From Hyphomicrobiaceae bacterium (GTDB lineage Bacteria > Pseudomonadota > Alphaproteobacteria > Rhizobiales > Hyphomicrobiaceae), in the NCBI GenBank assembly GCA_020442165.1, contig JAGRKV010000064.1, forward strand, positions 1-64,000: a DNA stretch of 64,000 bases, in the 5' to 3' direction. Shown here in pieces: positions 22,183 through 38,946 of the stretch. The translations under genes and the position numbers were made by a program. The number at the start of each line of letters is the position of its first letter. Position 1 is the stretch's first letter. The notes under the pieces are model-generated. The model worked only from the letters and a program-made list of their open reading frames with translations. It ran no database searches and was not told where the DNA came from.

Positions 22183-22216
22183 TGGAGGAGCCGATTGCAA
22201 CCGATGGAGGCCCGTC

Positions 22217-23770
22217 ATGGCCAACAAGTCACTTTTCGCCACTTACGCCGGCAAGCTCTTGCCGCGCGCCACGGCGAAGAACCGCGAAGGCGCCAAGGCC
22301 TATAAGCTCGAGGCGCGCCACCAGATCGCCCAGCTCGCCATGACGGGTACGCTGTCGCGCACGTTCTATGCGGATGCGCACGCCCAGCTTGCCGATGTGA
22401 TGGCGCTGGCGGAGAAGGTGTCGCCTGAGTTTCTGGCCAAGGCCGCGATCTATGCCCGCAAGCGTGGGCACATGAAGGACATGCCCGCGCTCATGCTGGC
22501 GGTGCTTTCGCGTCGTGACCCGGCGTTTTTCGCTCTCGCGTTCCCGCGCGTGGTCGATAACGGCCGCATGCTTCGCACGTTCGTGCAGGTGATGCGTTCG
22601 GGTGCCACGGGCCGCAAGTCTCTTGGCTCGCGTCCGAAGTCTGAGATCCAGGGTTGGCTCAATTCTGCCTCGGATCAGGCGTTGATGCGCGCTGCGGTCG
22701 GCTCCTCGCCGTCGCTCGCGGACATCGTCAAGATGGTGCATCCGAAGCCCGCCTCGCCGGAGCGCCGCGCTCTCTACGCCTGGCTGGTTGGGAAGCCCTA
22801 CGATGTAGCGATGTTGCCGGCGCCTGCGCGTTCGTTCGAGGCCTTCAAGCGTGATCGCATGAACCCCGTGCCTGATGTTCCGTTCCAGATGCTCACGGCA
22901 CTGGAGTTGACGCCGGAGCACTGGGTTGAGATCGCGAAGAGGGCTGGCTGGCAGATGCTGCGCATGAACCTGAACACGTTCGACCGCCAGTGTGCATTCG
23001 CCATCGACGGTTTCGCGGAGATGGTTGCGGCGCGGTTGAAAGACCCGGCTGAGATCGCCAAGGCGCGTGTGCTGCCCTACCAGTTGATGATGGCCTACAA
23101 AGCCGCATCGAAGGACGTGCCGCATCAGGTGCGCGAGGCGTTGCAGGACGCGATGGAAGTTTCACTCGCCAACGTCCCGGCTGTGTCGGGAAACGTGGTG
23201 ATCTGCCCCGACGTGTCGGGTTCGATGTCCTCGCCCGTGACAGGTGTCCGCAAGGGTGCCACGTCCGCGGTCCGCTGTATCGACGTGGCGGCTCTGTTTG
23301 CAGCGGCGATGCTGCGTCAGAAACCGGCTGCCAAGGTACTGCCATTCGAGAACGATGTGGTGAACGTCGCCTTGAATCCGCGCGACTCGGTAATGACCAA
23401 TGCGGCCAAGCTCGCGTCGGTCGGCGGTGGTGGAACGAATTGCTCGGCGCCGTTGCAGGTGCTGAACAAGGCGCACGCCAAGGTGGATCTCGTCGTGTTC
23501 GTCTCGGACAACCAGTCCTGGATGGATGCCCGGCATCCCGACCGCACAGGAATGATGACGGAGTGGACGAAGCTGAAGCGCAAGAACCACGGCGCCAAGC
23601 TGGTCTGCATCGACATCCAGCCCTACGGCACGACGCAGGCGCCCGAGCGCGACGACATCTTGAATGTCGGCGGGTTCTCGGACGCGGTGTTCGAGATCGT
23701 TGCCGACTTTGCCCGCGGGTCGCTTGGCCCGGAGCATTGGATGGACGAGATCGAGAAGGTCGCGCTGTGA
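22217..23770 (+). CDS. rsr: Ro60 orthologue Rsr (TROVE plus vWA domain)
   Basis: A 517-residue RNA-binding protein. Residues ~1-330 form the TROVE HEAT-repeat ring (KAAIYARKRGHMKDMPAL and TFVQVMRSGATGRKSLG are typical), which in known Ro proteins binds Y RNAs on the outside and misfolded RNA ends in the hole. Residues ~340-510 are a von Willebrand A domain with a MIDAS motif, DVSGSMS, and a second metal-loop GGGGTN. A GGAGG site precedes the ATG. It is the first gene after the sigma-54 promoter and is followed by the structured RNA array and rtcB, so it is the likely partner of the Y-like RNAs. Confidence 0.95.
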   Translation: MANKSLFATYAGKLLPRATAKNREGAKAYKLEARHQIAQLAMTGTLSRTFYADAHAQLADVMALAEKVSPEFLAKAAIYARKRGHMKDMPALMLAVLSRRDPAFFALAFPRVVDNGRMLRTFVQVMRSGATGRKSLGSRPKSEIQGWLNSASDQALMRAAVGSSPSLADIVKMVHPKPASPERRALYAWLVGKPYDVAMLPAPARSFEAFKRDRMNPVPDVPFQMLTALELTPEHWVEIAKRAGWQMLRMNLNTFDRQCAFAIDGFAEMVAARLKDPAEIAKARVLPYQLMMAYKAASKDVPHQVREALQDAMEVSLANVPAVSGNVVICPDVSGSMSSPVTGVRKGATSAVRCIDVAALFAAAMLRQKPAAKVLPFENDVVNVALNPRDSVMTNAAKLASVGGGGTNCSAPLQVLNKAHAKVDLVVFVSDNQSWMDARHPDRTGMMTEWTKLKRKNHGAKLVCIDIQPYGTTQAPERDDILNVGGFSDAVFEIVADFARGSLGPEHWMDEIEKVAL

Positions 23771-23810
23771 TGCAATTGCACTTGCTGCAATTGCGTCGGT
23801 TCGAAAGTAG

Positions 23811-24017
23811 CCGCGCCCGCGATCGTCGAAGGGACTGATGCGCAGCATCGCCCTTCGGCGTGAATCGCTGGCGCAAACATGACGCTCGCGATCGTTCGAC
23901 GGACTGTCACGCAGTGTCGCCGTCGAACGTGAATCGCTAGCGCAAACACCGCGCTCGCGATCGTCCAAAGGCCAGATGCGCAGCATCACCTATGGTCGTG
24001 AATCGCTGGCGCAAACA
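23811..24017 (+). repeat. Three exact-length 69-nt tandem hairpin repeats
   Basis: Units at 23811-23879, 23880-23948 and 23949-24017, each ending GCGCAAACA. Each folds into a long hairpin: outer stem GCGCC-GCGAT with ATCGC-GGCGC, inner stem, and an apical stem with a GCA loop. Inner stems differ but remain paired: CGAAGGG/CCCTTCG in unit 1, TTCGACGG/CCGTCGAA in unit 2, CCAAAGG/CCTATGG (one mismatch) in unit 3. The outer stem shows C-G, T-A and T-G at one position. This compensatory pattern supports selection for RNA structure. Function unknown; the place is directly after rsr and before the Y-like RNAs. Confidence 0.8.
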
Positions 24018-24020
24018 AAA

Positions 24021-24107
24021 GTGAGGCCGGGGGGAATGCTGCCCGGGACTACATCGCTCCAAACCGAAGAAAGTCTCGAGCGAACGACCTCGTCCCCCCG
24101 GCCCCGA
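24021..24107 (+). ncRNA. Y-RNA-like structure A
   Basis: Closing stem GGCCGGGGGG (24025-24034) with CCCCCCGGCC (24094-24103), 10 bp. Directly inside is the conserved 5' box GAATGCT...ACTACAT (24034-24054) and, before the 3' stem, CTCGTC (24089-24094). The interior is short: a hairpin CGCTC/GAGCG with an A-rich loop, and no tRNA-like part. The same two boxes recur in three further structures, each with a different closing stem. Ro60/Y RNA partnership is known from other bacteria; assignment here rests on position after rsr and on covariation. Confidence 0.65.
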
Positions 24108-24145
24108 AATGCAGTGTAGCGAAGTGAAGGAGTTGATCGACTGAA

Positions 24146-24368
24146 GGGGGTGCTCACCTGGAAAGGCGCGGGTACCGGGAAAAGTCTTGGATTGAAACCG
24201 GCGGATTGAGATCCGGTTGTCGGCGCAAGTCATCATCGGGGTCTTTGCAGTTGCACCGAAACAGCCAGAGAGGGCCGAGTAGGGAAGCGCATTTCAAACC
24301 GGTGATGGGCCTTGGGTAATGCCTCGGTTCGGCGATTGTCGCGGGTTCGAACCCCGTCACCTCCACCA
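24146..24368 (+). ncRNA. tRNA-like element with encoded CCA and long internal insertion
   Basis: The 3' part is a good tRNA 3' half: T-arm GCGGG-TTCGAAC-CCCGT (24341-24357), acceptor strand CACCTCC (24358-24364), A73 and CCA (24366-24368). The complementary acceptor strand GGGGGTG is at 24146-24152, about 205 nt upstream, with one G-T pair. The region between folds into several hairpins (for example ACCGG/CCGGT around 24196-24215) but no standard D-arm and anticodon arm could be placed. It could be an elongated tRNA mimic or part of a larger Y-type RNA. It is not a normal tRNA gene. Confidence 0.45.
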
Positions 24369-24429
24369 GTCAAACGAACGACACTACAGTTTAGACAGTT
24401 GAGAAAGGAACAGTAGCAGGGAACGAATA

Positions 24430-24579
24430 CGTGACGAATGCCGGCAGGAACTACATCATTGCTAATGACCGGGTCGCGGGTTCGAATCCCGCCGGGTCCG
24501 CCATAACCCTTCTAGGGAAGCGTATGGACCCGTAGCTCAGCGGATAGAGCAGGAGTTTCGCCAAACACTCGTCGTCACG
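24430..24579 (+). ncRNA. Y-RNA-like structure B enclosing a circularly permuted tRNA mimic
   Basis: Closing stem CGTGACGA (24430-24437) with TCGTCACG (24572-24579). The 5' box GAATGCC...ACTACAT is at 24436-24456 and CTCGTC at 24568-24573. Inside, in order: small hairpin TCATT-GCT-AATGA; T-arm GCGGG-TTCGAAT-CCCGC (24476-24492); acceptor 3' strand CGGGTCC (24493-24499) followed by GCCA; a 22-nt connector with hairpin CCCT/AGGG; acceptor 5' strand GGACCCG (24526-24532); TA; and D-arm GCTC-AGCGGATA-GAGC (24535-24550). The tRNA-Arg-like halves are thus in 3'-then-5' order, and the anticodon arm is replaced by the Y stem. Confidence 0.75.
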
Positions 24580-24622
24580 ACAAATGCTGCTGAACCGAAC
24601 TGAAAGGAAGAACGAAAGAGAA

Positions 24623-24733
24623 TCCGGCGAATGCCTGTGGGAGTACATCCTCCGCCAATGAGCGATTGCGTCTGGAAAGCGCACCCGACCCACCGTTATC
24701 GGGAGCTCGCCTCTCACATCTCTCGTCGCCGGA
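24623..24733 (+). ncRNA. Y-RNA-like structure C
   Basis: Closing stem TCCGGC (24623-24628) with GCCGGA (24728-24733), extended by GA/TC. The 5' box GAATGCC...AGTACAT is at 24629-24648 and CTCGTC at 24722-24727. The interior forms two adjacent hairpins, TGCG/CGCA and CCCGA/TCGGG, enclosed by GCGA/TCGC, a three-way-junction shape. It shares the 3' flank CTCACATCTCTCGTC-like sequence with structure D. No T-loop consensus is seen inside. Confidence 0.62.
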
Positions 24734-24744
24734 GCCTGACTGTA

Positions 24745-24860
24745 AGAGCGTGGCGAATGCCGATGGGACTACATGGGAAGGGCGCAAGCCCGAGAGGTTC
24801 GAGTCCTCGCGCGCGCCAAGCGGTGTGCGAAGTCTCATCACCCCTCGTCGCCACGGCTCT
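24745..24860 (+). ncRNA. Y-RNA-like structure D with T-arm-like module
   Basis: Closing stem AGAGCGTGGC (24745-24754) with GCCAC-G-GCTCT (24850-24860, one bulged G). The 5' box GAATGCC...ACTACAT is at 24755-24774 and CTCGTC at 24844-24849. Inside are a GGGC-GCAA-GCCC hairpin, a T-arm-like hairpin with loop TTCGAGT, and a 7-bp stem GCGCGCC/GGTGTGC closed by AAGC, comparable with the acceptor stem of structure B but capped. It ends 49 nt before rtcB. Confidence 0.62.
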
Positions 24861-24909
24861 TCTTGGCTGCATGCTGGAAATCGACTCTTGAGAAAATGGA
24901 AGACGTGTC

Positions 24910-26157
24910 ATGACCCGCGATTTTGAATTCCTGGCAGAGCGTTCCGAAGCCGCTAAGGCTGCGGGCGGCAACGCGCGACCGGTCAAGATGTGGACGCGCG
25001 GCGTGCCCGTCGAGGATCAGGCCAAGCAGCAGCTGCTCAACACGGCATCGATGCCGTTCATCTTCAAGCACCTCGCTGTGATGCCGGACGTGCATTACGG
25101 CATCGGCTCGACGGTTGGCTCGGTGATCCCGACCAAGGGCGCGATCATTCCCGCTGCAGTCGGTGTGGACATCGGTTGCGGCATGATGGCGTGGCAGCTG
25201 ACGCTGTCGGCGAAGGACCTTCCCGATAGCCTCGCAGCAATCCGCACGGACATTGAGCGTGCGGTGCCGCATGGCTTCGTCACGACGCAGGGCCGTGCGC
25301 TGAAGGGCGGCTGGGAGACGGCGCCGGCAGCGGTATCGACTCGTTGGCGCAAACTCGAAGGCCGCTACAACGCGATTCTAGAGAAGCATCCCAGGATCGC
25401 GCACAAGCGGCCGGTGCATCAGCTGGGTTCGCTCGGCACGGGCAACCACTTCATCGAGCTGTGCCTCGATGAAAGTGATGCCGTGTGGGTGATGCTGCAT
25501 TCGGGTTCGCGCGGTCCCGGCAACCAGATCGGTCAATACTTCATCGAGTTGGCGCGCCAGGACATGCGCACGCACTTCATCAATCTGCCCGACCGTGATC
25601 TTGCCTATCTGGCCGAGGGCACGGAGCACTTCGACGACTATTGGGAGGCGCTCACCTGGGCGCAGGAGTATGCGTGGGAGAACCGGCAGGCGATGATGGA
25701 CAGCGTGCTGCGCGTGCTGCGTGACCACTTGCCGCCCTTCAAGATTGGCGAGCAGGCGGTCAACTGTCACCACAACTACGTCGCGCGTGAGACACACTTC
25801 GGCGAGGATGTGCTGATTACCCGCAAGGGTGCGGTGCGCGCGGCTGAAGGTGTGATGGGCATCATCCCCGGCTCGATGGGCGCCCGCTCGTTCATCGTTC
25901 GCGGCAAGGGCAACGTGGAAAGTTTCTGCTCGTGCTCGCACGGCGCGGGACGTGCGATGTCGCGCACGCAGGCCAAGAAGCAGTTCACGCTTGAAGATCA
26001 CGCCCGTGACACCGCCGGCATCGAATGCCGCAAGGACGCCGACGTGATCGACGAGACTCCCAAGGCCTACAAGGACATCGATGCCGTCATGGCGGCGCAA
26101 GCGGCCCTCGTCGACATCGTCCACACTTTGCGGCAAGTGGTGTGCGTGAAGGGGTGA
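24910..26157 (+). CDS. rtcB: RNA 3'-phosphate/5'-OH ligase RtcB
   Basis: Joins RNA 2',3'-cyclic phosphate or 3'-phosphate ends to 5'-hydroxyl ends using GTP and Mn2+. The 415-residue length fits bacterial RtcB. Conserved parts are present: VGVDIGCGM (metal Cys) near residue 90, GTGNHFIEL, HSGSRGPGNQIG, NCHHNYV, and the C-terminal SCSHGAGR with the histidine that becomes guanylylated. A GGAAG site lies upstream of the ATG. It follows the Y-like RNA array and precedes a small unknown gene and rtcA, all in one direction from the sigma-54 promoter. Confidence 0.96.
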   Translation: MTRDFEFLAERSEAAKAAGGNARPVKMWTRGVPVEDQAKQQLLNTASMPFIFKHLAVMPDVHYGIGSTVGSVIPTKGAIIPAAVGVDIGCGMMAWQLTLSAKDLPDSLAAIRTDIERAVPHGFVTTQGRALKGGWETAPAAVSTRWRKLEGRYNAILEKHPRIAHKRPVHQLGSLGTGNHFIELCLDESDAVWVMLHSGSRGPGNQIGQYFIELARQDMRTHFINLPDRDLAYLAEGTEHFDDYWEALTWAQEYAWENRQAMMDSVLRVLRDHLPPFKIGEQAVNCHHNYVARETHFGEDVLITRKGAVRAAEGVMGIIPGSMGARSFIVRGKGNVESFCSCSHGAGRAMSRTQAKKQFTLEDHARDTAGIECRKDADVIDETPKAYKDIDAVMAAQAALVDIVHTLRQVVCVKG

Positions 26158-26246
26158 AGCAAGCGGCAGGCAAAGCATCGCACTCGGAATTGACTGCTCA
26201 ATTAGCTTTGGATGAGCTATTGAACCAAACTTTTGGAGGGAGAGGT

Positions 26247-26885
26247 ATGGATAGGGCGCTTGCAGAAAGACGACTATTCGGTGGGCACTTCTTCGACACA
26301 TCGATTGTGCGGAGGAATATCCTCTATTTGACGGGTATCGTCTGCGGTTCCGAGTTTGCGATAAAGCACGCAGCGTCAGAAGGGCGGAACTTGGCGCAGT
26401 GGGGTCACAGATTCCACCCCGTCGAAATGATATACGATGATACTTTCACCGCTGAGGTATCCCGGCTGCTCATCGAAATTGCGGCAACGTTGAGAATCTT
26501 GGACGATATAGCAGGTTCGCACGTCGTAGCTATCAACTTCCCAGTTGGAAATTTGCTCGGTCCAACAGGCGGTACGCCCATGCGCCTCCGTGATTGCTGC
26601 AACAAAATCATACATGCGCGACAATTGTCGTTCGAACTCGGCGGAGGGATCATGACCTACGTCGACAAGAATGGTGAAGAAGTTGGAGAATGCATTTCCT
26701 ACGCGTTGCCGACCATCCTGGAGATGCGTGGTGAGCAGTCCGGTGTTGAGTGGATCGCAGAGCTTGATTTCATGGCATTTATCAAAGCAGCTACAATGGT
26801 CACGTATCGCTATGATGATGCGATCGACGAGCTGTATGAAGAGCCGGACGCCGAGCGGGACACGACGCGCTCCATTAAGTGCTGA
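26247..26885 (+). CDS. Unknown protein encoded between rtcB and rtcA
   Basis: About 212 residues from ATG 26247, which has a strong GGAGGGAGAGG site just upstream; the longer frame into rtcB is a shadow. Base composition is visibly more AT-rich than rtcB and rtcA. No signal peptide or transmembrane segment is evident. The protein has an N-terminal RRLFGGHFFDTSIVRRNILY, a mixed helical middle (VSRLLIEIAATLRILDDIAG) and an acidic tail. I recognise no family. It overlaps the rtcA start region by a few bases, which suggests coupling and a role with RNA repair, perhaps as accessory or as a recently inserted gene. Confidence 0.7.
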   Translation: MDRALAERRLFGGHFFDTSIVRRNILYLTGIVCGSEFAIKHAASEGRNLAQWGHRFHPVEMIYDDTFTAEVSRLLIEIAATLRILDDIAGSHVVAINFPVGNLLGPTGGTPMRLRDCCNKIIHARQLSFELGGGIMTYVDKNGEEVGECISYALPTILEMRGEQSGVEWIAELDFMAFIKAATMVTYRYDDAIDELYEEPDAERDTTRSIKC

Positions 26886-26887
26886 AA

Positions 26888-27907
26888 ATGCTAACTCTAG
26901 ACGGCAGCTTCGGCGAAGGCGGCGGGCAGGTCGTGCGCACTGCCTTGACGCTTTCAATGATTACCGGGACGCCGTTCCGGATCGAGCGCGTGCGCGCCGG
27001 GCGTAAGAAGCCAGGCCTGCTTCGCCAGCACCTCACCTGCGTGAAGGCGTCAGGGCGCGTTGCAAGCGCGCGCGTCACCGGAGCGGAGCTGGGCGCGACA
27101 TCCTTCACCTTCGAACCCGGCGTCATCAATGCCGGTGAGTACGAGTTCGCGATTGGCTCGGCAGGCTCCACCATACTCGTTTTTCAAACCATACTGCCCG
27201 CGCTGCTTAAAGCGAATGCGCCGTCGCGCGTGACGCTGAAGGGCGGCACTCACAATCCGTTGGCGCCGACGTTCGATTATCTGGAGCGCGTTTTCCTGCC
27301 GCTGATTGCACGCATGGGCGTGGCGGTCGAAGTGAAGCTCCATAAGCCCGGCTTCTTCCCTGCGGGCGGCGGCTCATGGCATGCGCTTGTGCAGCCCGCG
27401 CGCGAACTCACTGCCCTTGTGATTGAAGAAGCAGGTCCCACATCCGCGCAGCACGCGCGCGCCGACGTCGCAAACTTGCCATTCGACATCGCCGAGCGCG
27501 AAGCCGCCGAAGCCGTGCGTTTGATGAGCTGGCCAGCAAAGGCGGCTCTCCCGCGTTCTGTCAACGCCGATGGTCATGGCAACGTGTTGGCGCTGGAAAT
27601 ATGGCGTGGCGGCATGGCCGAGATTTTCACGGCCTTCGGTGCCCGCGACATCACTGCGGAGCAGGTCGCTGCCGATGCAGTGGCCGAAGCGCGCGACTAC
27701 ATTGCGGCGGGCGTTCCCGTTGGCCCGCATCTGGCCGATCAGCTCCTGGTGCCGATGGCGCTGGCGGGCGGCGGCAGCTTCGTGACCATGCGCCCGACCG
27801 CCCACACGACGACCAATATTTCGGTCATCGAAAAATTCTTGCCCGTCGAATTCGAAGTAAAGCAGATCGATGGCAAGAATCGCTGGCGGATCGCTGTTGT
27901 GTCGTGA
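26888..27907 (+). CDS. rtcA: RNA 3'-terminal phosphate cyclase RtcA
   Basis: Converts RNA 3'-phosphate to 2',3'-cyclic phosphate with ATP. About 339 residues from ATG 26888 (GTG at 26879 would add three, overlapping the previous gene). Family blocks are present: LDGSFGEGGGQVVRTAL at the N-terminus, RAGRKKPGLLRQHLT, the inserted domain, and near the C-terminus TAHTTTNISVIEKF with the histidine that is adenylylated in the family. No clear ribosome binding site precedes the ATG, so translation is probably coupled to the upstream gene. It closes the repair operon. Confidence 0.94.
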   Translation: MLTLDGSFGEGGGQVVRTALTLSMITGTPFRIERVRAGRKKPGLLRQHLTCVKASGRVASARVTGAELGATSFTFEPGVINAGEYEFAIGSAGSTILVFQTILPALLKANAPSRVTLKGGTHNPLAPTFDYLERVFLPLIARMGVAVEVKLHKPGFFPAGGGSWHALVQPARELTALVIEEAGPTSAQHARADVANLPFDIAEREAAEAVRLMSWPAKAALPRSVNADGHGNVLALEIWRGGMAEIFTAFGARDITAEQVAADAVAEARDYIAAGVPVGPHLADQLLVPMALAGGGSFVTMRPTAHTTTNISVIEKFLPVEFEVKQIDGKNRWRIAVVS

Positions 27908-28086
27908 CGCCCTGATCTATTACGGGGGACCATTGGCCTCTTGTCGCGCAGGTTGCCTGTGGCGCGGCGGCGACGCCACACCCAATTGCCGGTGGGCATC
28001 CGGGCGGCGGTTGGGTGTGTTGTCTCGACAGCGCCATTCTCCCCCGCTACCTCCTACCCCGATGGCATGAAGAAGCGAGGACCGCC

Positions 28087-30420
<2,334 letters not shown>

Positions 30421-30520
30421 CATAAGCGTATATGTCCCGTCGCACCCAAGGGCATTCATCGCCATAAACAGAGCCCGGCGACGTCATGTCACCGGGCTGC
30501 TGAATGTCATCGGGCTGCCT

Positions 30521-30670
30521 AGAGCGATTCCGACCTAGACGGAATCGATAAGGCCGCGATTGCGGCCCGAAGCCTAGCGCCGCCGCCGCGGAGCAGCCCG
30601 AGCGATAGCGAGGGTTAGCTGCGTGAGAGAAGAAATCCGGATCGTTTCAACGTAAGTCTGAAACGATCTA
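30521..30670. repeat. Dispersed hairpin repeat family R1, copy a
   Basis: About 150 bp closely similar to 57885-58033. Shared landmarks are GCGATTCCGACC at the start, GCGGAGCAGCCCGAGCGATA in the middle, AGGGTTAGCTGCGTGAG, and the end hairpin ATCGTTTCA/TGAAACGAT. The first hairpin is GATTCCG/CGGAATC. It lies between the convergent stops of tex and the DsrC-like gene, and copy b likewise lies between convergent genes. Confidence 0.8.
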
Positions 30671-30700
30671 ACGGGCGCGCCCTCTCTAATTGTAGCGGGG

Positions 30701-31039
30701 TCAGTATCCACCCTTGCGCCGGCTCTCAGGCAAACCAGCGATGCGTCCGGCGATCTTCGAAGGGTCACCGTTGAAAAGATCGTAGACCTCTTTCTGGTCG
30801 ACGCTACGGCCCCACTCCTCGGCCATCGCCTTGACAATGGTGCGTGTGTTGGGCTGCGTCTGGTTGTTGTTGAAATATTGGTCACGCAGGAAGTTGATGA
30901 TCGACATCTGCTCTTCGCCAAGCGTGATGCCGTCCTGCGCCGCCAGGACATGCGCGAGTGCTTCGCTCCAGTCCTCGTGGTTTTCGAGATAGCCGTTGGC
31001 GTTGGTCTCGATCTCCTGTCCGTTGAACTCGATGGCCAT
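30701..31039 (-). CDS. DsrC/TusE-family paralogue without cysteines (RspA-like)
   Basis: A 112-residue DsrC-fold protein with the family pattern: N-terminal GQEIETNANGYLENHEDWSE, the helix around MSIINFLRDQYFNNNQ, and the segment EVYDLFNGDPSKIAGRIAGL. The C-terminal arm ends GLPESRRKGGY, so both the penultimate redox cysteine (CysA) and CysB are missing, and the protein has no cysteine at all. Family members without the cysteines are called RspA and are thought not to carry sulfur; a regulatory or scaffolding role is proposed. It is the last gene of the cysG operon, 41 nt after cysG. AAGGAAA precedes the ATG. Confidence 0.85.
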   Translation of the reverse strand: MAIEFNGQEIETNANGYLENHEDWSEALAHVLAAQDGITLGEEQMSIINFLRDQYFNNNQTQPNTRTIVKAMAEEWGRSVDQKEVYDLFNGDPSKIAGRIAGLPESRRKGGY

Positions 31040-31080
31040 GTTTCCTTTCCCTTTCGTTCAAGTCGTTGGATGGTTGTGGC

Positions 31081-32580
31081 TCAGGGATGCTTCCCTTGAC
31101 CGTTTGAAGTTGCGCTGGCGGCGACAGCGCCAGATGAATCGGCCGGCGCACCGAATGCGGCTGTGGCTGCGGCATCGCTCGTTGGTGGCGGGTTAAACCA
31201 GGCGAGCTTGTCGCGCAGAGAAACCACCGAGCCGATGATGATGAGGGCGGGGCCAACGACGCCTTCAGCGCGCGCTACCTCAGCGATGTTTGCAAGCGAC
31301 CCCGTTGCGACCTTCTGGTTGGGTCGCGTGCCGTTTTCGATGATGGCAACCGGCAGCGATGCGTCCGCGCCATGGGCGATGAAGTCGGCGGTGAGCTCGG
31401 CAAGATAGGCAAGGCCCATGTAGACGACGACGGTCTGGCCAGGCTGCAAAAGGCTCACCCACTCGGCGGAAAGCCGCCCCGTCTTCGTGTGCCCGGTGAC
31501 GAAGACACAGGCCTGGGCATGGTCGCGATGGGTAAGCGGGATGCCGGCAAAGCTTGCGCAGCCGGATGCTGCGGTGATGCCGGGCACGATCTGGAAGGGT
31601 ACGCCTTCGGCCGCCAGCAATTCGATCTCTTCTCCTCCGCGTCCGAAGATGAAGGGATCGCCGCCCTTGAGCCGCAGCACCCGTTTGCCTTCACGGGCAA
31701 GCCTGACAAGCAGTTTGGAAATCTCTTCCTGCGGCAGCGCATGCTCGTTGCGCTTCTTGCCGACGTATATGCGCTCCGCATTGGGGCGCACCAGATCCAT
31801 GATGGCGCTGCCAAGCAGCCGGTCGTAGACGACGACATCGGCACGTTGCATCAGCCGGAGCGCGCGAAAAGTGAGAAGGTCGGGATCACCTGGCCCACCG
31901 CCCACGAGATAAACTTCGCCGATCTCGGGTACGCCGCTCGCCACATATCGTTCCGTCTCGCGTTCGAGAAGCACCTGGGCACGAGCCTCGTCGCCCGCGA
32001 GTACCAGGTCCGAAACGGGACCATCGACCAGTGTCTCGATGAAATGGCGGCGCGCGCGGCGTTCAGGGATACGCCTCGAAATCGATTCGCGTGCTCTGCC
32101 CAGGAACCGCGTCAGCTTGCCGAACGCTGCCGGAATGGAGGCTTCCAGGCGCTGCGCGATGAGCCGCACCAGCAGCGGTGAGGTGCCCGCCGACGAGATC
32201 GCCACCAGTAGCGGCGAGCGGTCGATAATGGACGGCATGGTGAAATCGCAGCTTTCGGAATTCTCCGACGAAATGAGAACGCCGTGCGCGCGTGCCAGTT
32301 CGCAGACCCTGGCGTTGCTTGCGCGATCCTCCGACGCTGCGAAAACCAGCATCGCACCCTTGAGGTCGTCGGCGGAAACCTCGCCTGTCCGGATCTCGAT
32401 ACCGTGCTGTTGCGCCACCTCGTCGAGCGCGTCGCTGCGGCGGTCTGCGACCACTAGAACCTTGGCGCCGGCACGCATGGCCGTGCAGGCTCGACGTACC
32501 GCTTGCCGTCCGTTGCCGCTGACGACGACGGAGCGGCCCTTGAGGTTGAGGCAGATCGGAAGCTGCTCCATCTCATTCAC
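31081..32580 (-). CDS. cysG: Siroheme synthase CysG
   Basis: A 499-residue trifunctional enzyme for uroporphyrinogen III methylation, precorrin-2 oxidation and iron insertion, giving siroheme, the cofactor of DsrAB. The N-terminal ~210 residues are the dehydrogenase/ferrochelatase module (the usual glycine-rich motif is changed to VVVSGNGRQAVRR). From about 217 the SAM-dependent methyltransferase begins VYLVGGGPGDPDLLT, followed by LRLKGGDPFIFGRGGEE and PGITAASG. The C-terminal ~35 residues are low complexity. It lies divergent to dsrA, next to a DsrC-like gene, so it probably supplies siroheme for the Dsr system. Confidence 0.95.
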   Translation of the reverse strand: MNEMEQLPICLNLKGRSVVVSGNGRQAVRRACTAMRAGAKVLVVADRRSDALDEVAQQHGIEIRTGEVSADDLKGAMLVFAASEDRASNARVCELARAHGVLISSENSESCDFTMPSIIDRSPLLVAISSAGTSPLLVRLIAQRLEASIPAAFGKLTRFLGRARESISRRIPERRARRHFIETLVDGPVSDLVLAGDEARAQVLLERETERYVASGVPEIGEVYLVGGGPGDPDLLTFRALRLMQRADVVVYDRLLGSAIMDLVRPNAERIYVGKKRNEHALPQEEISKLLVRLAREGKRVLRLKGGDPFIFGRGGEEIELLAAEGVPFQIVPGITAASGCASFAGIPLTHRDHAQACVFVTGHTKTGRLSAEWVSLLQPGQTVVVYMGLAYLAELTADFIAHGADASLPVAIIENGTRPNQKVATGSLANIAEVARAEGVVGPALIIIGSVVSLRDKLAWFNPPPTSDAAATAAFGAPADSSGAVAASATSNGQGKHP

Positions 32581-32659
32581 TCCGGTCTATGCGATCTGCC
32601 AGTACCAGTCGGCACAAGCGCCTGATCCAGTCGCAAGCTGTTCTCGGGCCGCAAGGTGT

Positions 32660-32905
32660 TCAAGTGTCTTCGCCTTTATCGCTGGTGCTGTCTGGCAGCT
32701 CGCCGCGCACCCATTGCTGCATCAGGTCCGCCCACGCCATGGCCGTCGTGTCATCGATGTCGAGAATGGTGAAACGCCGGCCTTCGCGGATACGAATTCG
32801 CAACAGCCGCATGCCGCTTTCGTGCAGCACGTTCTCAAACACCACCTCACGCCGGTAGGGGGCATTGAGGCGGCCGATCTCGCTGGCCTCGCCGCCCTCG
32901 CTCAC
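32660..32905 (-). CDS. Small unknown protein in cysG operon (81 aa)
   Basis: 81 residues from a GTG at 32905 whose GTGA overlaps the stop of the preceding gene, a sign of translational coupling. The core reads REVVFENVLHESGMRLLRIR followed by IREGRRFTILDIDDTTA, a compact beta-rich pattern ending in an amphipathic helix (MAWADLMQQWV) and acidic tail. No cysteine or signal peptide. I do not recognise a characterised family. The next gene is cysG, 79 nt downstream. Its conserved-looking core and tight spacing suggest a real protein working with siroheme or sulfur metabolism. Confidence 0.7.
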   Translation of the reverse strand: MSEGGEASEIGRLNAPYRREVVFENVLHESGMRLLRIRIREGRRFTILDIDDTTAMAWADLMQQWVRGELPDSTSDKGEDT

Positions 32906-33111
32906 GACCGGCCCCTGAGATAGCGGCCACCGAGCGCAAACACCCGCTCGATATCGGTCTGCCAGCTGCGCGGCGTATCGGTGTAGTCGGGTTTGACATC
33001 GAAATTGACGAAGCGCGCGCCGTCATCGGCGGCTTGCGCAACGAGACGCAGCAAGCCCTCGAAGTCATGGACTTGTGGATTGTAGATGATGAGGTCGCTC
33101 AGGTTCACCAT
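32902..33111 (-). CDS. Small unknown protein in cysG operon (about 69 aa)
   Basis: About 69 residues from ATG 33111 (GGGAG about 7 nt upstream); a GTG at 33141 would add ten. Sequence features are VNLSDLIIYNPQVHDFEGLL and GARFVNFDVKPDYTDTPRSW, with no cysteine, signal or membrane segment. Its stop overlaps the GTG of the next gene. No family recognised. It follows the dioxygenase gene on the same strand after 125 nt. Confidence 0.65.
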   Translation of the reverse strand: MVNLSDLIIYNPQVHDFEGLLRLVAQAADDGARFVNFDVKPDYTDTPRSWQTDIERVFALGGRYLRGRS

Positions 33112-33236
33112 ACCTGGCTCCCGTTCGAGGCTGTGGCTCACCTTGCGTTTCCCTTTTGTCGTTACGGCGGGTTGTTATGGTTTTTCCGCCTGTTGAACTT
33201 GCCGCGCTACGCCGTGCGTGACTTGCTGGCACCTCT

Positions 33237-34187
33237 CTAGGTGCCTGATAGCCGCTCACGATAGCGCACACGATAAAGCAGCCGCTGGGCGGTGTCGTCA
33301 TTCTCAAAGGCCGTGCGGGTGTGAAGCACGTTGTTGGATATGAGACCCTCGCCCGCCGCCATCTTGTATTTCAGGATGAGCGGCTCTTCTTCCTGTCCCA
33401 GCAGCCTGTCGAGAAGTGCGACGGCCGCCTGGGTGTCGGCATCGTCCCGCCAGATGATGTTGCGCTTCCGCGCCGTGTAGCGCATCGTCATGCGCCCGTT
33501 ATCGTCGAATAGAAAAACCGGTCCGGTACTGGTCGGCCGCACGCTGCCGTCCTCTTCAACGGATTCGGGTATCGTCATCGCTTCAGGATGCAGCATGGCG
33601 GAGATAAGCGCCCGCCCTGCGTCGCGCATGCGGATGTAGACGATATCGGGATCGAGCAGCGCGTTGATCCCGCCTTCCTGTGCTGGCCGGACACAGTGCA
33701 GCAGCATCGCCCGGATCGGGTCGTCAGGCGGATTGTAGTAGCCGTCCGTATGCCAGGAGAGCGCCTTCGTCGTATAGGGGATGAACCCGCGCTTGGATTC
33801 CGCGCTTGTCACCTCGATTGCGACGATGCCGTCGTCTTCCGCTGAGCGGTGCGATTCCATCGATTTCAGGCCGAAGGCATGTCCGAAATCTGTGAGGGCA
33901 AGGCGCATGCTCTTGTCGCCGGCTGCCGATTCGCTGCAGGGGTCCGTCACGTAGATCGCCATGTTGGCTCGGCGGCAGCAGTTCACGATTGCGTCATTTT
34001 CCACTGCGGAGGGGCGCCTGAGGTCGGCAACGGGCACGCGCAGCGCGTCAATGTCACGCGGATAGGCTGAGAGCTTCTCCTCCCGCCATGCTCCGTAGGC
34101 GATATTATCGTCGAATTCGAATGGATTAGCGCCCGCCCCGCCCCGCTTTAGCGAATGTCGGAAGGTCGGCTCAACGCTCGTACTCAT
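33237..34187 (-). CDS. TauD/TfdA-family Fe(II)/2-oxoglutarate dioxygenase
   Basis: About 316 residues from ATG 34187 (nine more from 34214). The iron-binding facial triad is visible: HTD in ALSWHTDGYYNPP near residue 150 and the distal histidine in SNNVLHTRTAF near residue 290, with an Arg in the last helix region (RVRYRERL) for 2-oxoglutarate. TauD-type enzymes oxygenate substrates such as taurine to release sulfite. Position at the head of the cysG operon, divergent from dsrA, suggests a sulfur-linked substrate, but the sequence does not identify it. Confidence 0.8.
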   Translation of the reverse strand: MSTSVEPTFRHSLKRGGAGANPFEFDDNIAYGAWREEKLSAYPRDIDALRVPVADLRRPSAVENDAIVNCCRRANMAIYVTDPCSESAAGDKSMRLALTDFGHAFGLKSMESHRSAEDDGIVAIEVTSAESKRGFIPYTTKALSWHTDGYYNPPDDPIRAMLLHCVRPAQEGGINALLDPDIVYIRMRDAGRALISAMLHPEAMTIPESVEEDGSVRPTSTGPVFLFDDNGRMTMRYTARKRNIIWRDDADTQAAVALLDRLLGQEEEPLILKYKMAAGEGLISNNVLHTRTAFENDDTAQRLLYRVRYRERLSGT

Positions 34188-34651
34188 GTCTTGAACCTTG
34201 TTCACCAGCCACACCGGAGAGGATTATTCACCCCCACTGTGGCACCAGCCCGCGAATTCCCACTAGACAGCTCGGCAAAAAGCAAACGAAATTGCAAGCA
34301 TGCGCGGCGGTTGGTCACGCAATTCGACAGACTTGGACTTTAGACTTGTGCGACCAATGCTGGCAGTTCTAATATGCAAACCTACGAATATGCAAGAGTG
34401 CGACGATCGCCCTCGGAAGCTGTTTGCTACGAGCTAGATTTAAAGCACCGAGACTTTGGTTCACGTAGGCTGCTGGGCTGACCGGCAAGAGCTGGCAATA
34501 GGTTCGCCACGCGCGGCGCTTCGATTTTATCGTCGGGCGTTTCGATCGGCAACGAGCCTGGATTGTTTTACGGCGAGAGAGCTCGGCGGCTCTCGATATG
34601 GACTAGATCGCAGCCCTCCCCATCGGGGAGGAAAACGAAGGGAAGAACGCA
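34188..34651. promoter_or_regulatory. Divergent control region between the dioxygenase and dsrA
   Basis: About 460 bases, AT-richer than its surroundings, with no gene. It holds a direct repeat AATATGCAA at 34371-34379 and 34387-34395 (16-nt period, one and a half helical turns), a possible operator. Near dsrA are two hairpins: CGAGAG/CTCTCG (34574-34595) and CCTCCCC-ATC-GGGGAGG (34615-34631). The second lies just before the dsrA ribosome binding site (GGGAAG) and has no T-run, so it may control translation or mRNA stability rather than stop transcription. Confidence 0.5.
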
Positions 34652-35968
34652 ATGGCGGATCAGGCGAAATATGAGGGTGTCGGCAAGGTGGGCGCGGAGT
34701 TCGAGACGCGCAACACGCCGAGGCTCGACCAACTCGAGGGCGGCCCGTGGCCGAGTTTCGTGACCGGCCTGAAGAGGCTGCGCGATTCAAAGGACAAGCC
34801 CTACGCCGAGTACATGAACGATTTGCTCGGCCAGCTCGAGCACTCCTACACCGAGCGCCTCGGCTACTGGAAGGGCGGTACGGTTTCCGTGTTCGGTTAT
34901 GGCGGCGGCATCATCCCGCGCTTCTCCGAAGTTGGCGACAAGTTCCCCAAGTCCAAGGAGTTCCACACACTGCGTGTGATGCCTCCGGCGGGCTACCACT
35001 ACACGACGGATATCCTGCGCAAGATGTGCGACGTGTGGGAGCGTCATGGCTCGGGCCTGATCGCCTTCCACGGTCAGTCCGGCGACATCATGTTCCAGGG
35101 CACGACGACTGAGGGCTGCCAGAAGGCCTTCGATGAGCTCAACGAGATGGGCTTTGACCTTGGCGGTGCCGGCCCGGCATTGCGTACGTCGATGAGCTGC
35201 GTTGGTCATGCGCGCTGCGAGATGTCGATGTACGACGAGTCGCGCGCTCACCGCGAAATCCTGAATGAGAACGTCAGCGAGATCCATCGTCCCGCGCTGC
35301 CCTACAAGTTCAAGTTCAAGTTCTCTGGTTGCGCCAACGACTGCGTCAATGCCATCCATCGCGCCGACTTCGCGGTGATCGGCACCTGGCGCGACGACAT
35401 CAAGATCAACCAGGAAGAGGTCAAGACCTACGTCGAGGACCACGGTCGCAAGTACACCATCGACCACGTCGTCGCCATGTGCCCGACGCGCGCCGTTTCA
35501 CTCAACGACGACAACACGCTCGACATCGACAACAAGAGCTGCGTGCGCTGCATGCACTGCATCAACGTCATGCATAAGGCTCTGGCACCCGGTGACGACC
35601 GCGGCGTCTCGATCCTCATCGGCGGCAAGCGCGCCCTCAAGATCGGCGATCTGATGGGCACGATGGTCATCCCGTTCATGAAGCTCGATACAGACGAGGA
35701 CTTCGACAAGCTGCGTGAGTTCGCCACCGGCATGATCGAGTTCTTTGCCGAGAATGCTCTGGAGCATGAGCGTGTCGGTGAGACCATTGACCGCATCGGC
35801 TTGCCGGCATTCCTAAACGCCATGGGCATCGAACCCGATCCCAACATGGTCAAGCATCCCCGTACGTCCTGCTATGTGCGCACCGACGACTTCACCGAAG
35901 AGGCGGAGAAGTATTTCGCGCGCAAGGGCCTCAACAAGGACGGTTCGGCGCGCGACGCCGCCGAATAA
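34652..35968 (+). CDS. dsrA: Dissimilatory sulfite reductase alpha subunit (reverse type)
   Basis: A 438-residue siroheme protein, subunit of the cytoplasmic alpha2-beta2 sulfite reductase that in sulfur oxidisers runs toward sulfite. The 4Fe-4S/siroheme ligands are at Cys183 and Cys189 (CVGHARC) and Cys227 and Cys231 (CANDC). The inserted ferredoxin domain has CPTRAV and CVRCMHC near residues 270-305. The ATG follows a GGGAAG site. It starts a rightward operon dsrABEFHCMKLJOPN. The presence of dsrEFH and dsrL supports the oxidative, not sulfate-reducing, type. Confidence 0.97.
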   Translation: MADQAKYEGVGKVGAEFETRNTPRLDQLEGGPWPSFVTGLKRLRDSKDKPYAEYMNDLLGQLEHSYTERLGYWKGGTVSVFGYGGGIIPRFSEVGDKFPKSKEFHTLRVMPPAGYHYTTDILRKMCDVWERHGSGLIAFHGQSGDIMFQGTTTEGCQKAFDELNEMGFDLGGAGPALRTSMSCVGHARCEMSMYDESRAHREILNENVSEIHRPALPYKFKFKFSGCANDCVNAIHRADFAVIGTWRDDIKINQEEVKTYVEDHGRKYTIDHVVAMCPTRAVSLNDDNTLDIDNKSCVRCMHCINVMHKALAPGDDRGVSILIGGKRALKIGDLMGTMVIPFMKLDTDEDFDKLREFATGMIEFFAENALEHERVGETIDRIGLPAFLNAMGIEPDPNMVKHPRTSCYVRTDDFTEEAEKYFARKGLNKDGSARDAAE

Positions 35969-36139: not shown

Positions 36140-37237
36140 ATGAGCCAAGGAGCAGCGACGCAGGCGCCGCCGAAAAAGCGAACGCCGATCGAGTCGGGCG
36201 TACCAGATCCGAAGCAGTACATGCATCCGGTCATGGTCAAGAACTACGGCCAGTGGGCCTATCACGAGCGTCCACGTCCGGGCGTTCTGCGTCACGTCGC
36301 CAAGAGCGGTGATGAGATCTTCACGGTCCGCGCCGGCACGCAGCGTCAGATGGACGTCTATACGATCCGCACGCTATGCGACATCGCCGATAACGTCGGT
36401 GACGGCTTCGTTCGCTTCACCACGCGCTCGAACATCGAATTCCTGGTGTCCAAGTTCGAAAAGGTGCCGGCGCTCATCAAGGCGCTGGGCGAAAAGGGTT
36501 TCCCCGTCGGCGGCACAGGCAATTCCGTGTCGATGATTTCGCACACACAGGGTTGGCTGCACTGCGATATTCCAGGCACCGATGCCTCGGGCGTCGTCAA
36601 GAGCTTGATGGACACGCTCCATGAGGAGTTCATCAAGGAAGACATGCCAAACCGCGTGCGCATCACGACTTCGTGCTGCCAGATCAACTGCGGCGGCCAG
36701 GGCGACATCGCCATCAACGTCCAGTACACCAAGCCGCCCAAGATCAATCACGATCTCGTCGCCAATGTCTGCGAGCGTCCGGCTGTCGTTGCGCGCTGCC
36801 CGGTTGCTGCGATCAGGCCGGCCATGGTCAATGGCAAGCCGTCGCTCGAAGTCGACGAGAAGAAGTGCGTGTGCTGCGGCGCCTGCTATCCGCCTTGCCC
36901 GCCCATGCAGATCAACGGTGCCGAGTCGACCAAGATCGCCATCTGGGTTGGCGGCAAGCACTCCAACGCACGTTCGCGCCCAACATTCCACAAGCTGGCG
37001 GTCGCCAATCTGCCCAACAATCCGCCGCGCTGGCCGGAGGTTGAGGATGTCGTTCGCAAGATCCTCAGCGCCTACAAGAACGGCGCGAAGGATTGGGAGC
37101 GCATGGGTGAATGGATCGAGCGTATTGGCTGGCCCCGCTTCTTCGAGGAGACGGGTCTCGCCTTCACCAAGCATCACCTCGATACGTGGACCGGCGCCCG
37201 CCACACGATGAACATGTCGGCGCACGTCCGCTTCTGA
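36140..37237 (+). CDS. dsrB: Dissimilatory sulfite reductase beta subunit (reverse type)
   Basis: A 365-residue partner of DsrA. The siroheme/4Fe-4S site shows TSCCQINCGGQGD near residue 175, followed by CERPAVVARCP, and the ferredoxin domain has CVCCGACYPPCPPMQI near residue 245. In known Dsr the beta subunit carries the catalytically competent siroheme. GAGAGGAATTACG precedes the ATG and supplies the ribosome binding site. A 171-nt gap separates it from dsrA, longer than is usual for this pair, and holds a stable hairpin. Confidence 0.97.
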   Translation: MSQGAATQAPPKKRTPIESGVPDPKQYMHPVMVKNYGQWAYHERPRPGVLRHVAKSGDEIFTVRAGTQRQMDVYTIRTLCDIADNVGDGFVRFTTRSNIEFLVSKFEKVPALIKALGEKGFPVGGTGNSVSMISHTQGWLHCDIPGTDASGVVKSLMDTLHEEFIKEDMPNRVRITTSCCQINCGGQGDIAINVQYTKPPKINHDLVANVCERPAVVARCPVAAIRPAMVNGKPSLEVDEKKCVCCGACYPPCPPMQINGAESTKIAIWVGGKHSNARSRPTFHKLAVANLPNNPPRWPEVEDVVRKILSAYKNGAKDWERMGEWIERIGWPRFFEETGLAFTKHHLDTWTGARHTMNMSAHVRF

Positions 37238-37393: not shown

Positions 37394-37792
37394 GTGAAGC
37401 TGAGCATCCTGGTCAACGAAGGCCCGTACACGCACCAGTCTGCGGATTCGGCCTATCAATTCACGAAGGCGGCCCTTGAGAAAGGTGTCGAGATCTTTCG
37501 TGTCTTTTTCTACCACGACGGTGTCAACAACGGCACGCGCCTCACGGTGCCGCCGCAGGACGACCGCAACATCCAGAAGAACTGGTCGGAGCTGGCCGAG
37601 CAATACAAGCTCGACCTCGTCGTCTGCATCGCCGCGGCCCAGCGTCGTGGCATTCTTGACGAGGGCGAAGCGAAGCGGCACGGCAAGGGTGACGGCGCCG
37701 CCAACATAGCACCTGGTTTCCGCATCTCGGGTCTTGGTCAGTTGATCGAGGCCGGCATCGAGGCCGATCGCCTCGTCGTCTTCGGCGATTGA
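37394..37792 (+). CDS. dsrE: DsrE, sulfur-transfer protein (TusD-like)
   Basis: A 132-residue subunit of the cytoplasmic DsrE2F2H2 hexamer, which passes persulfide sulfur to DsrC. The sulfur-carrying cysteine is at residue 78 in LDLVVCIAAAQRRG, the same number as in the characterised Allochromatium protein. The N-terminus MKLSILVNEGPYTHQSADSA is typical. GAGAGG lies upstream of the ATG. dsrF follows after 11 nt. DsrEFH in this operon is the usual marker of oxidative Dsr pathways. Confidence 0.96.
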   Translation: MKLSILVNEGPYTHQSADSAYQFTKAALEKGVEIFRVFFYHDGVNNGTRLTVPPQDDRNIQKNWSELAEQYKLDLVVCIAAAQRRGILDEGEAKRHGKGDGAANIAPGFRISGLGQLIEAGIEADRLVVFGD

Positions 37793-37803
37793 GGGAGAGG
37801 CAG

Positions 37804-38211
37804 ATGTCGCAGGTCAAGAAATTCCTCTACGTCAACCGCAAGGCGCCATACGGCACCATTTACGCTCTGGAAAGTCTCGAGGTCGTGCTGATCGGCGCGG
37901 CGTTCGATCAGGACGTAAGCCTTGCATTCATCGACGACGGTGTCTTCCAGCTCGCAAAGGGGCAGGACACCAAGGGTCTCGGAGTAAAGAACTTTTCGCC
38001 CACGTATCGTGCGCTGGGCGACTACGGAGTGACGAAGCTGTACGTCGAAAAGGAGGCGCTGGCCGAGCGCGGGCTCTCCGAGGACGACCTGATGCCGGTC
38101 ACCTACGAGGACGAGAATGATGGATTTGCTGAGAAGCCGTCGCTCATCTTCGTCGATCGCGCTGAAATGGCGCGGGTGATGGCTGAGCAGGACGTCATTT
38201 TGAGCTTCTGA
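37804..38211 (+). CDS. dsrF: DsrF, sulfur-transfer complex subunit (TusC-like)
   Basis: About 135 residues from ATG 37804, which has GGGAGAGG upstream. It starts MSQVKKFLYVNRKAPYGT, the DsrF/TusC pattern, and contains no cysteine, consistent with its structural rather than sulfur-carrying role in the DsrEFH hexamer. It lies between dsrE and dsrH with short spacers. The frame extends upstream to 37789, but that start lacks a site. Confidence 0.95.
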   Translation: MSQVKKFLYVNRKAPYGTIYALESLEVVLIGAAFDQDVSLAFIDDGVFQLAKGQDTKGLGVKNFSPTYRALGDYGVTKLYVEKEALAERGLSEDDLMPVTYEDENDGFAEKPSLIFVDRAEMARVMAEQDVILSF

Positions 38212-38238
38212 CACGTGGTAAATGCAGGGAATATCGCA

Positions 38239-38547
38239 ATGTCGACATTGCACATGGTCAACAAGTCGCCTTTCGAGCGCGGTGCGATGCAGAGCTGTCT
38301 CGAGCATGCACTCGAAGGTGATGGCGTATTGCTGTTCGAAGACGGTGTTTATGGCGCCGTCAAGGGCAGCGCGGTGACCGGGCTGATCGAGAACAAGGCC
38401 GGCTCGGTGAAGGTATACGTTCTGGGCCCGGATCTGGCGGCGCGCGGCATTGCTGGCGGCCGATTGATCGAGGGCATTACTGTTGTCGATTATCCAGGCT
38501 TTGTTGATCTGGTGACGGCGCATAAGGGAACGCAGTCCTGGCTGTGA
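38239..38547 (+). CDS. dsrH: DsrH, sulfur-transfer complex subunit (TusB-like)
   Basis: 102 residues from ATG 38239 with GGGA upstream. The N-terminus MSTLHMVNKSPFERGAMQSC puts a cysteine at position 20, the conserved DsrH/TusB site. It completes the DsrEFH trio and is followed 66 nt later by dsrC, its sulfur acceptor. Confidence 0.95.
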   Translation: MSTLHMVNKSPFERGAMQSCLEHALEGDGVLLFEDGVYGAVKGSAVTGLIENKAGSVKVYVLGPDLAARGIAGGRLIEGITVVDYPGFVDLVTAHKGTQSWL

Positions 38548-38613: not shown

Positions 38614-38946
38614 ATGGCTTACACTGTGAACGGAAATACCGTCGAGCACGACGAGGAAGGCTACCTGACCGATCTGAACGAGTGGAGCGAGGACATCGCT
38701 CTGGAGATCGCAAAGGCACAGAACCTTGAAATGAACGAAGAGCGCTGGGAAGTCGTCAACTTCCTGCGCAACTACTACGACGAATACCAGGTTGCGCCCG
38801 CTATCCGCGTGCTCACCAAGGCGCTCGCCAAGACGATGGGACCCGAGAAGGGCAACAACAAGTACCTCTACGAGTTGTTCCCGTATGGCCCCGCCAAGCA
38901 GGCATGCATGATCGCCGGTCTGCCGAAGCCCACGGGCTGCGTCTGA
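38614..38946 (+). CDS. dsrC: DsrC, sulfur-carrier protein with both redox cysteines
   Basis: 110 residues from ATG 38614 after AAAAGGGAGA. The C-terminal arm ends GPAKQACMIAGLPKPTGCV, so CysA is penultimate and CysB lies ten residues before it, the pair that forms the DsrC trisulfide and its oxidised disulfide. It takes sulfur from DsrEFH, presents it to DsrAB, and is thought to be recycled by the DsrMKJOP membrane complex. This is the only one of three DsrC-family proteins in the window with cysteines, so it must be the functional carrier. Confidence 0.97.
   Translation: MAYTVNGNTVEHDEEGYLTDLNEWSEDIALEIAKAQNLEMNEERWEVVNFLRNYYDEYQVAPAIRVLTKALAKTMGPEKGNNKYLYELFPYGPAKQACMIAGLPKPTGCV

Follow-up and report, generated by a model that had tools for sequence, protein, structure and literature searches.

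The window (the whole stretch of DNA that was analysed, 64,000 nucleotides) carries a dsr gene cluster on its plus strand and, divergent from dsrA, a set of genes that run on one strand in the order tauD/dsrQ-orf79-DUF6967-cysG and end with a gene for a cysteine-free relative of DsrC. This relative and its subfamily are named KGGY here, after the C-terminus. The features of the locus are as follows.

30701–31039, minus strand: KGGY gene, cysteine-free DsrC-family protein of 112 aa plus stop codon (Pfam, NCBIfam, AlphaFold2, Foldseek)
30704–30727, minus strand: invariant tail ESRRKGGY (residues 105–112), which replaces KPTGCV of canonical DsrC (orthologue alignment, translation)
30707–30709, minus strand: Gly111 codon, in the alignment column of DsrC's penultimate redox cysteine (CysA)
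30746–30748, minus strand: Gly98 codon, where DsrC has its first redox cysteine, CysB (alignment)
31081–32580, minus strand: cysG, siroheme synthase (profile match); the ORF opens with GTG and the true start may lie inside it
32660–32905, minus strand: DUF6967 protein (profile match, 9.9e-27)
32902–33141, minus strand: orf79, an ORF for which other dsr loci have homologues in the corresponding position
33237–34214, minus strand: TauD-like 2OG-Fe(II) oxygenase (profile match, 2.1e-18), called dsrQ in dsr loci (name from a passage of PMC7596348)
34215–34651, no strand: intergenic region that separates dsrA from the divergently transcribed tauD-cysG-KGGY operon (ORF coordinates)
34652–35968, plus strand: dsrA (profile match)
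36140–37237, plus strand: dsrB (profile match)
37394–37792, plus strand: dsrE (profile match)
37789–38211, plus strand: dsrF, named from its position and from conserved homologues in the equivalent position
38215–38547, plus strand: dsrH, named in the same way
38614–38946, plus strand: canonical DsrC gene with both cysteines (profile match, alignment); the ORF opens at 38548 and the ATG is at 38614
54438–54812, minus strand: second cysteine-free DsrC-family gene, of another subfamily, with the ending DSFGSTF (PF04358, tree)

The KGGY gene lies 41 bp after cysG and starts with an ATG preceded by gaaagggaaaggaaac, a plausible ribosome-binding site. The encoded protein (MAIEFNG...AGLPESRRKGGY) contains no cysteine and is acidic, with a computed pI of 4.63 and a charge of -8.3 at pH 7. 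It matches Pfam PF04358 (DsrC) at 2.9e-30 (105 bits, cut-off 24.9) and NCBIfam TIGR03342 with 93 bits (cut-off 53.5), and these curated sequence cut-offs, together with the fold, place it in the DsrC/TusE superfamily. The AlphaFold2 model of the monomer has a mean pLDDT of 90.1, falling below 50 at residues 109–112, and all eight Foldseek matches in the PDB at E ≤ 0.001 are DsrC-family chains, with DsrC of A. vinosum (1yx3, TM 0.82) at the top; 1yx3 is also the best solved DsrC chain by sequence (1.1e-17). A Foldseek search of the model against viral proteins returned nothing at E ≤ 0.001. The canonical DsrC of the window, read from the ATG at 38614, ends ...KQACMIAGLPKPTGCV and has both cysteines; its gene lies 7.6 kb from the start of the KGGY gene. 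The first-pass annotation of this DNA had described a protein with the DsrC fold but neither redox cysteine, encoded 8 kb from a normal DsrC, all of which is borne out here; it was silent on the minus strand and on the second cysteine-free DsrC-family gene at 54438–54812.

The loss of the cysteines is a trait of the subfamily. At the CysB place, all 28 DsrC rows compared have a cysteine, and the 39 KGGY rows have glycine (30), alanine (5), leucine (3), or cysteine (1). The CysA place holds cysteine in 28/28 DsrC rows and glycine in 39/39 KGGY rows, the latter count being partly by construction, as added rows were labelled by their ending. Five of the 39 rows retain a single cysteine, which in one case occupies the CysB position, so the hallmark of the family is the tail together with the loss of the penultimate cysteine and not the strict absence of cysteines. 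Among 25 aligned orthologues picked by homology, every one ends with RKGGY; 33 columns are invariant, seven of them within the last eight residues (E105–Y112), and the arm DPSKxxGxxAGxxESxRKGGY is almost fixed. When 100 relatives of the window's genome were searched, full-length matches of 56%–100% identity were found in 14 genomes, and the next-best matches reached 41% identity at most and ended at residue 105, before the tail. The gammaproteobacterial order represented by L048 has 29 complete proteins ending with RKGGY (21 of the full-length type and 8 shorter ones), plus one protein that a contig end truncates ahead of the tail (G505) and one fragment (G513). The ending GKGGY occurs in four genomes of another class of the same phylum (G856, G751, G725, and G773) and in the alphaproteobacterium G443. 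A KGGY gene is also carried by Rhodobium orientis DSM 11290 (L045), for which dsrA was found as well (G486).

With the tail included, the KGGY rows form one clade (39 rows, support 97/91) in a tree that omits G725, L045, L046, identical rows, and all but 7 of the 30 gammaproteobacterial rows. After removal of the last 14 residues of every row they again form one clade (41 rows, 100/92), recovered in 100% of 200 bootstrap trees; in this tree G725 and L045 were added and the GGM group was dropped. In both trees the window's protein falls among the KGGY rows and separates from DsrC, TusE, and other paralogues. On this sequence evidence, KGGY is a subfamily of the DsrC superfamily in its own right, monophyletic and non-redox, and an old and well-kept one. 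The label "cysteine-free paralogue" in the first-pass annotation was correct about the loss and understated it, the loss being common to an entire clade that has an invariant C-terminus of its own.

Judging from its frame and length, which are kept in orthologues, and from dN/dS values of 0.086, 0.139, and 0.149 against three congeners, the ORF behaves as a real gene, and these ratios show a signature of purifying selection. It could be supposed that the gene is a relic, a DsrC duplicate drifting once the cysteines were lost, as the cysteines are gone, a normal DsrC is present, and the gene is missing, by loss or from the outset, in a minority of dsr genomes. We consider this extremely improbable: the dN/dS range of 0.086–0.149 and the invariant tail rule out a pseudogene, and the KGGY proteins form one old clade across two classes and more.

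The genome of the window has eight PF04358 matches: one canonical DsrC, one KGGY protein, four proteins ending with AWSTG that have the first cysteine only, one FGST protein, and one protein ending with LGGM. Further DsrC-family genes lie on contigs C19, C82, C85, C46, and C23 (L003–L006, L008). The set of DsrC-family sequences extracted for this comparison leaves out one DsrC of L048. The FGST protein, encoded at 54438–54812 on the minus strand, belongs to a separate clade (13 rows, 100/99), and its gene adjoins an ORF with a 2Fe-2S ferredoxin domain (52846–54723); as far as shown, it stands outside the KGGY/dsr system.

At the level of gene content, the KGGY clade goes with the oxidative Dsr system. 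The gene is found in 14 of the 16 dsr-positive genomes among the 100 relatives and in none of the other 84; the 16 comprise 15 genomes with dsrA over the cut-off and G069, in which dsrA is split at contig ends and dsrB and DsrC are present. In genus g25, G053 has dsrA and KGGY and G027 and G042 have neither; in genus g20, both genes occur in G022 and are missing from G038 and G049. PF04358 genes as a whole occur in 17 of the 100 relatives, 16 of them dsr-positive. In a class-wide sample of 385 genomes, dsrA occurs in six and KGGY in four, all among those six (G000, G293, G386, and G443). A phylum-wide sample of 398 genomes has dsrA in 53 and KGGY-type matches in 10, all with dsrA; the remaining 43 dsrA genomes have no match reaching the tail at E ≤ 1e-18, a criterion (match reaching model position 112 at that E-value) which more divergent members may escape. 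Twelve further genomes were reached via their loci, and dsrA is present in 11 of them and absent from the KGGY carrier G491. Within the gammaproteobacterial order, dsrA was found in 26/31 KGGY carriers (a fragment included) and in 7/10 non-carriers, the carriers without it being G498, G518 (which has a dsrB-like fragment), G524, G526, and G533. Genomes that have dsrA and lack a KGGY match (G028, G072, G100, and G143, the first two being those missing the gene among the 100 relatives) indicate that KGGY is dispensable for having dsr. All these counts come mostly from draft genomes, in which single absences mean little either way, and relatedness inflates them. One of the 84 other relatives, G056, has dsrEFHCMK genes (L025, L070) and no dsrA match, so that dsrA was lost in assembly or the Dsr system of this genome does without DsrAB.

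The position of the gene relative to dsrA recurs. The order tauD-orf79-DUF6967-cysG-KGGY, divergent from dsrA, is found in the window's genus (4/4 genomes), G022, and G053, and in G698 KGGY follows dsrN, cysG, and one further gene. In the gammaproteobacterial order, KGGY lies on the dsrA contig in 22 of the 26 genomes with both genes, and in 22/22 it is divergent and within 4 kb; it is likewise divergent beside dsrA in G856, G751, G725, and G773 (4/4), where the order from dsrA is DUF6967, Cas6-like gene, KGGY, and tauD. In the nine gammaproteobacterial loci that were read, KGGY is divergent from dsrA beside a Cas6-like gene, with tauD in eight and orf79 in three. The gene orders at these loci rest on tblastn tables, clustering of all neighbouring ORFs being noisy and the gene caller having missed real genes in several loci. 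Together with the co-occurrence, the position next to dsrA upholds the tie to the Dsr system that had been proposed for this gene. Its place at the end of the cysG operon, also part of that proposal, holds as a location; as a clue to function it does not, as the fetched flanks of 19 other alphaproteobacterial KGGY loci contain neither dsr genes nor cysG (one of these loci, L180, has another DsrC paralogue) and G028 and G143 have the cysG operon without KGGY. For these reasons we rejected a function tied to CysG as a general rule; cysG is a local neighbour of KGGY.

Parts of the neighbourhood persist among 13 dsr loci taken from genomes with no KGGY match. The set tauD-orf79-DUF6967-cysG is kept in G028 and G143, tauD and DUF6967 in G072, tauD and orf79 in G100, and the Cas6-like gene in G501, G506, and G507; the contig ends before the place of the module in G502, G509, G528, and G530, and none of the module was found in the dsr loci of G568 and G594. 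In G022 (L183, 8851–9192) and G028 (L219, 8896–9168), a DsrC-family gene of the WSTG type sits on the opposite strand inside the tauD-DUF6967-cysG operon. The gene orf79 of the window (32902–33141) has no match in Pfam or NCBIfam. According to the relevant passage of PMC7596348, which cites Lenk 2012, the tauD-like gene of oxidative dsr clusters that is transcribed away from dsrA is dsrQ, so the tauD neighbour of KGGY is the dsrQ of the literature: the same gene in the same orientation here and in other loci, a neighbour of KGGY and not a homologue. Neither a DsrC-like nor a Cas6-like gene next to dsrQ is mentioned in that passage. The Cas6-like gene of the gammaproteobacterial loci matches PF09559 (8e-48 and 1e-54 in the two tested). 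It lies between dsrA and KGGY in L048 and L166–L173 (gammaproteobacteria) and in L213–L216, whose homologues are 27%–31% identical, and no further cas gene was recognised beside it in these loci. A Cas6-like protein linked to dsr is unusual, and this one may have been repurposed.

DsrC is a hub that passes sulfur between cytoplasmic carriers and DsrAB, and its arm enters DsrAB in the solved complexes. Lacking both catalytic cysteines, KGGY has no means of making the DsrC disulfide or of holding a persulfide on its arm, and the protein probably controls or assists the oxidative Dsr enzymes and does not carry sulfur. The tail is invariant although it is disordered in the predicted monomer, which would point to a binding partner. 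Since the arm is invariant between classes, the partner itself should be conserved between classes; the gammaproteobacterial loci and the window share 62%–66% identity in DsrA and 70%–73% in DsrB, and 40%–55% in DsrH. DsrAB, which the arm of DsrC enters, is the simplest candidate, and the DsrAB-DsrC complexes 2v4j, 2xsj, 3or1, and 3or2 are among the DsrC-chain matches of the KGGY protein. Fourteen positions are conserved at ≥ 90% in both KGGY and DsrC, among others Y86, F89, P93, K95, G102, and P104; these and L88, also kept in both, belong to the stretch before the arm. The invariant arm would then serve for binding: like the arm of DsrC, it would dock on a conserved component of the Dsr system, with the DsrAB cleft that leads to the siroheme as the likeliest site, and the docked protein would gate, stabilise, or restrain sulfur oxidation by DsrC/DsrAB. 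We give roughly even weight to this reading of KGGY as a non-redox Dsr accessory whose tail docks on a conserved component, likeliest DsrAB, and modulates sulfur flux, and no result singles out DsrAB over DsrEFH, DsrK, or DsrL. If a sister of DsrC has indeed kept the docking arm without the chemistry and has long been kept near dsrA, a non-redox control or helper protein is missing from current pathway maps.

The main rival to such a modulator is a regulator of dsr transcription with the DsrC fold, binding DNA in the divergent dsrA promoter region and having no use for a cysteine. Divergent placement by dsrA, as seen in 22 gammaproteobacterial and four other genomes, is common for regulators, and DsrC of A. 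vinosum binds DNA upstream of the dsr cluster, according to the pertinent section of PMC5944118. Foldseek also lists winged-helix regulators below the DsrC chains, but only at E-values of 0.4 or worse, so this likeness is not significant; moreover, the protein is acidic, its gene is mostly the last or third of its operon and not promoter-proximal, and what is conserved is a DsrC-type arm and not a basic recognition helix. A regulatory role is accordingly possible though unlikely. The adjacency of cysG in the window's genus, G022, and G053, and its position one gene away after dsrN in G698, would fit a role in DsrAB maturation, in which KGGY holds the active-site channel or takes siroheme from CysG during cofactor insertion or amidation, and DsrC is a known partner of DsrAB in solved complexes. 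The absence of cysG beside KGGY from the gammaproteobacterial loci, the four other-class genomes, and the 19 unlinked loci, as well as the cysG operons of G028 and G143 that lack KGGY, make this role quite improbable.

A pure competitor that replaces DsrC on DsrEFH or DsrK and blocks sulfur or electron transfer, as competition with DsrC had been suggested earlier, could make use of the surface before the arm, which is conserved in both subfamilies, and DsrE needs the DsrC arm. However, in the account of PMC3397948 available for this interaction, the contact between DsrEFH and DsrC strictly requires the penultimate cysteine that KGGY has lost, which makes DsrEFH a less likely partner and leaves the competitor as a doubtful option. 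Sulfur carriers of the ThiS/MoaD kind hold sulfur as a thiocarboxylate on a C-terminal Gly-Gly, and trimming of the GGY end could yield such a group, so that the sulfur chemistry would be changed and not lost. The KGG-Y end is fixed (39/39 rows, partly chosen by that end, and 25/25 rows chosen by homology), but the fold does not resemble that of ubiquitin, neither an E1-like activating enzyme nor a trimming protease turned up in the genes that recur around KGGY, and the idea is pure speculation from five letters, to which we attach very little probability.

Compared with its relatives, KGGY shares the fold, the superfamily, and the dsr context with canonical DsrC (38614–38946 in the window; 1yx3 of A. 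vinosum). Canonical DsrC has two arm cysteines (CysB and CysA) and a GC[VI] tail, whereas KGGY has neither cysteine and the KGGY tail; the former is encoded inside dsrABEFHCMKL and forms a separate clade, whereas the KGGY gene is divergent or unlinked. TusE, a component of the Tus relay for tRNA 2-thiouridine, is likewise a small protein of the DsrC superfamily, but it keeps the penultimate cysteine (as described in the section of PMC3397948 on this protein) where KGGY has a glycine, and KGGY scores 88.8 bits against the TusE equivalog, below the cut-off of 191. Most likely, KGGY belongs to an already known kind of DsrC relative. A DsrC-superfamily group that has no need of the cysteines was reportedly named RspA by Venceslau et al. 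in 2014 and linked to gene regulation; the name stands for "regulatory sulfur-related protein". RspA is reportedly a protein of sulfur-metabolising bacteria for which the conserved cysteines are unneeded, and KGGY, which would fit this definition, is probably the same group. The KGGY tail, the dsrA-divergent module, and the phage copy are not known to be part of the RspA description, and no paper on a KGGY-tailed or RspA protein was found in the open-licence PMC text. The contribution of the present analysis seems to lie in the KGGY signature, in the recognition of a dsr-associated clade, in the genes that recur beside it, and in the copy on a phage-like contig. Published genomes list additional DsrC/TusE genes close to dsr, without analysing them, in Thiocapsa bogorovii (LT988_06690, near dsrA LT988_06665), Thiohalobacter (FOKN1_1941/1943, before dsrA2B2 FOKN1_1945/1946), and Thiodictyon (THSYN_22565, near the dsr cluster ending with THSYN_22545), each given by annotation and position.

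The phage copy is a 113-aa KGGY protein, 57% identical to that of the window, on the phage-like contig IMGVR_UViG_3300032087_002997 (L134), and it groups with the gammaproteobacterial rows (100/84). Its neighbours encode a Mom-like DNA modification protein (3.9e-60), an endonuclease (2.4e-40), and a member of a nucleotide-kinase-related family; no capsid or terminase gene was found among the 10 of 23 ORFs checked. Scans of viral contigs gave this one KGGY contig, recovered again in two further scans, and the 15 plasmid and six phage records that match the KGGY protein are all below 60% identity, most of the annotated ones being called TusE. On these grounds a plasmid- or phage-borne origin was rejected. 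Phage DsrC-like proteins that likewise lack cysteines are known (Anantharaman 2014; Roux 2014, PMC4164917; Kieft 2021, PMC8190135), and the passage of Kieft 2021 on them counts five sequences with neither cysteine motif. The pertinent parts of PMC4164917 and PMC8190135 propose a modified or TusE function and do not name the KGGY family. KGGY offers a concrete reading of the cysteine-free phage "DsrC" so far ascribed to TusE function or functional loss, and a phage copy would fit a dominant-acting modulator. A broader scheme, which we regard as rather unlikely, would unite KGGY, as the core, with DsrQ/TauD, DUF6967, orf79, and the Cas6-like protein outside a cas operon in one accessory module of oxidative Dsr so far unrecognised, with the GGY tail of this cysteine-free pseudo-carrier gating the DsrAB channel and the gene captured by phages; if true, phages would have captured the KGGY gate to steer host sulfur metabolism.

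Scans of the region 30400–34700 gave one promoter-like match, at chance level, and three terminator-like matches against 3.6 expected. Two inverted repeats of 11 pairs each (30640–30668 and 30472–30498, minus strand) follow the KGGY stop codon and are terminator-like, the scan total being at chance level. Rfam and tRNA scans of the window detected one tRNA-His and nothing else. In the window, 280 bp separate the KGGY stop from the end of tex on the opposite strand, and in G443 (L174, 2719–5624) KGGY follows tex on the same strand; this proximity in both is possibly a coincidence. Beside the dsr region, positions 20353–30420 of the window encode an RtcR regulator, a Ro60/TROVE-like protein, RtcB, and RtcA, forming an RNA-repair cluster, and then Tex.
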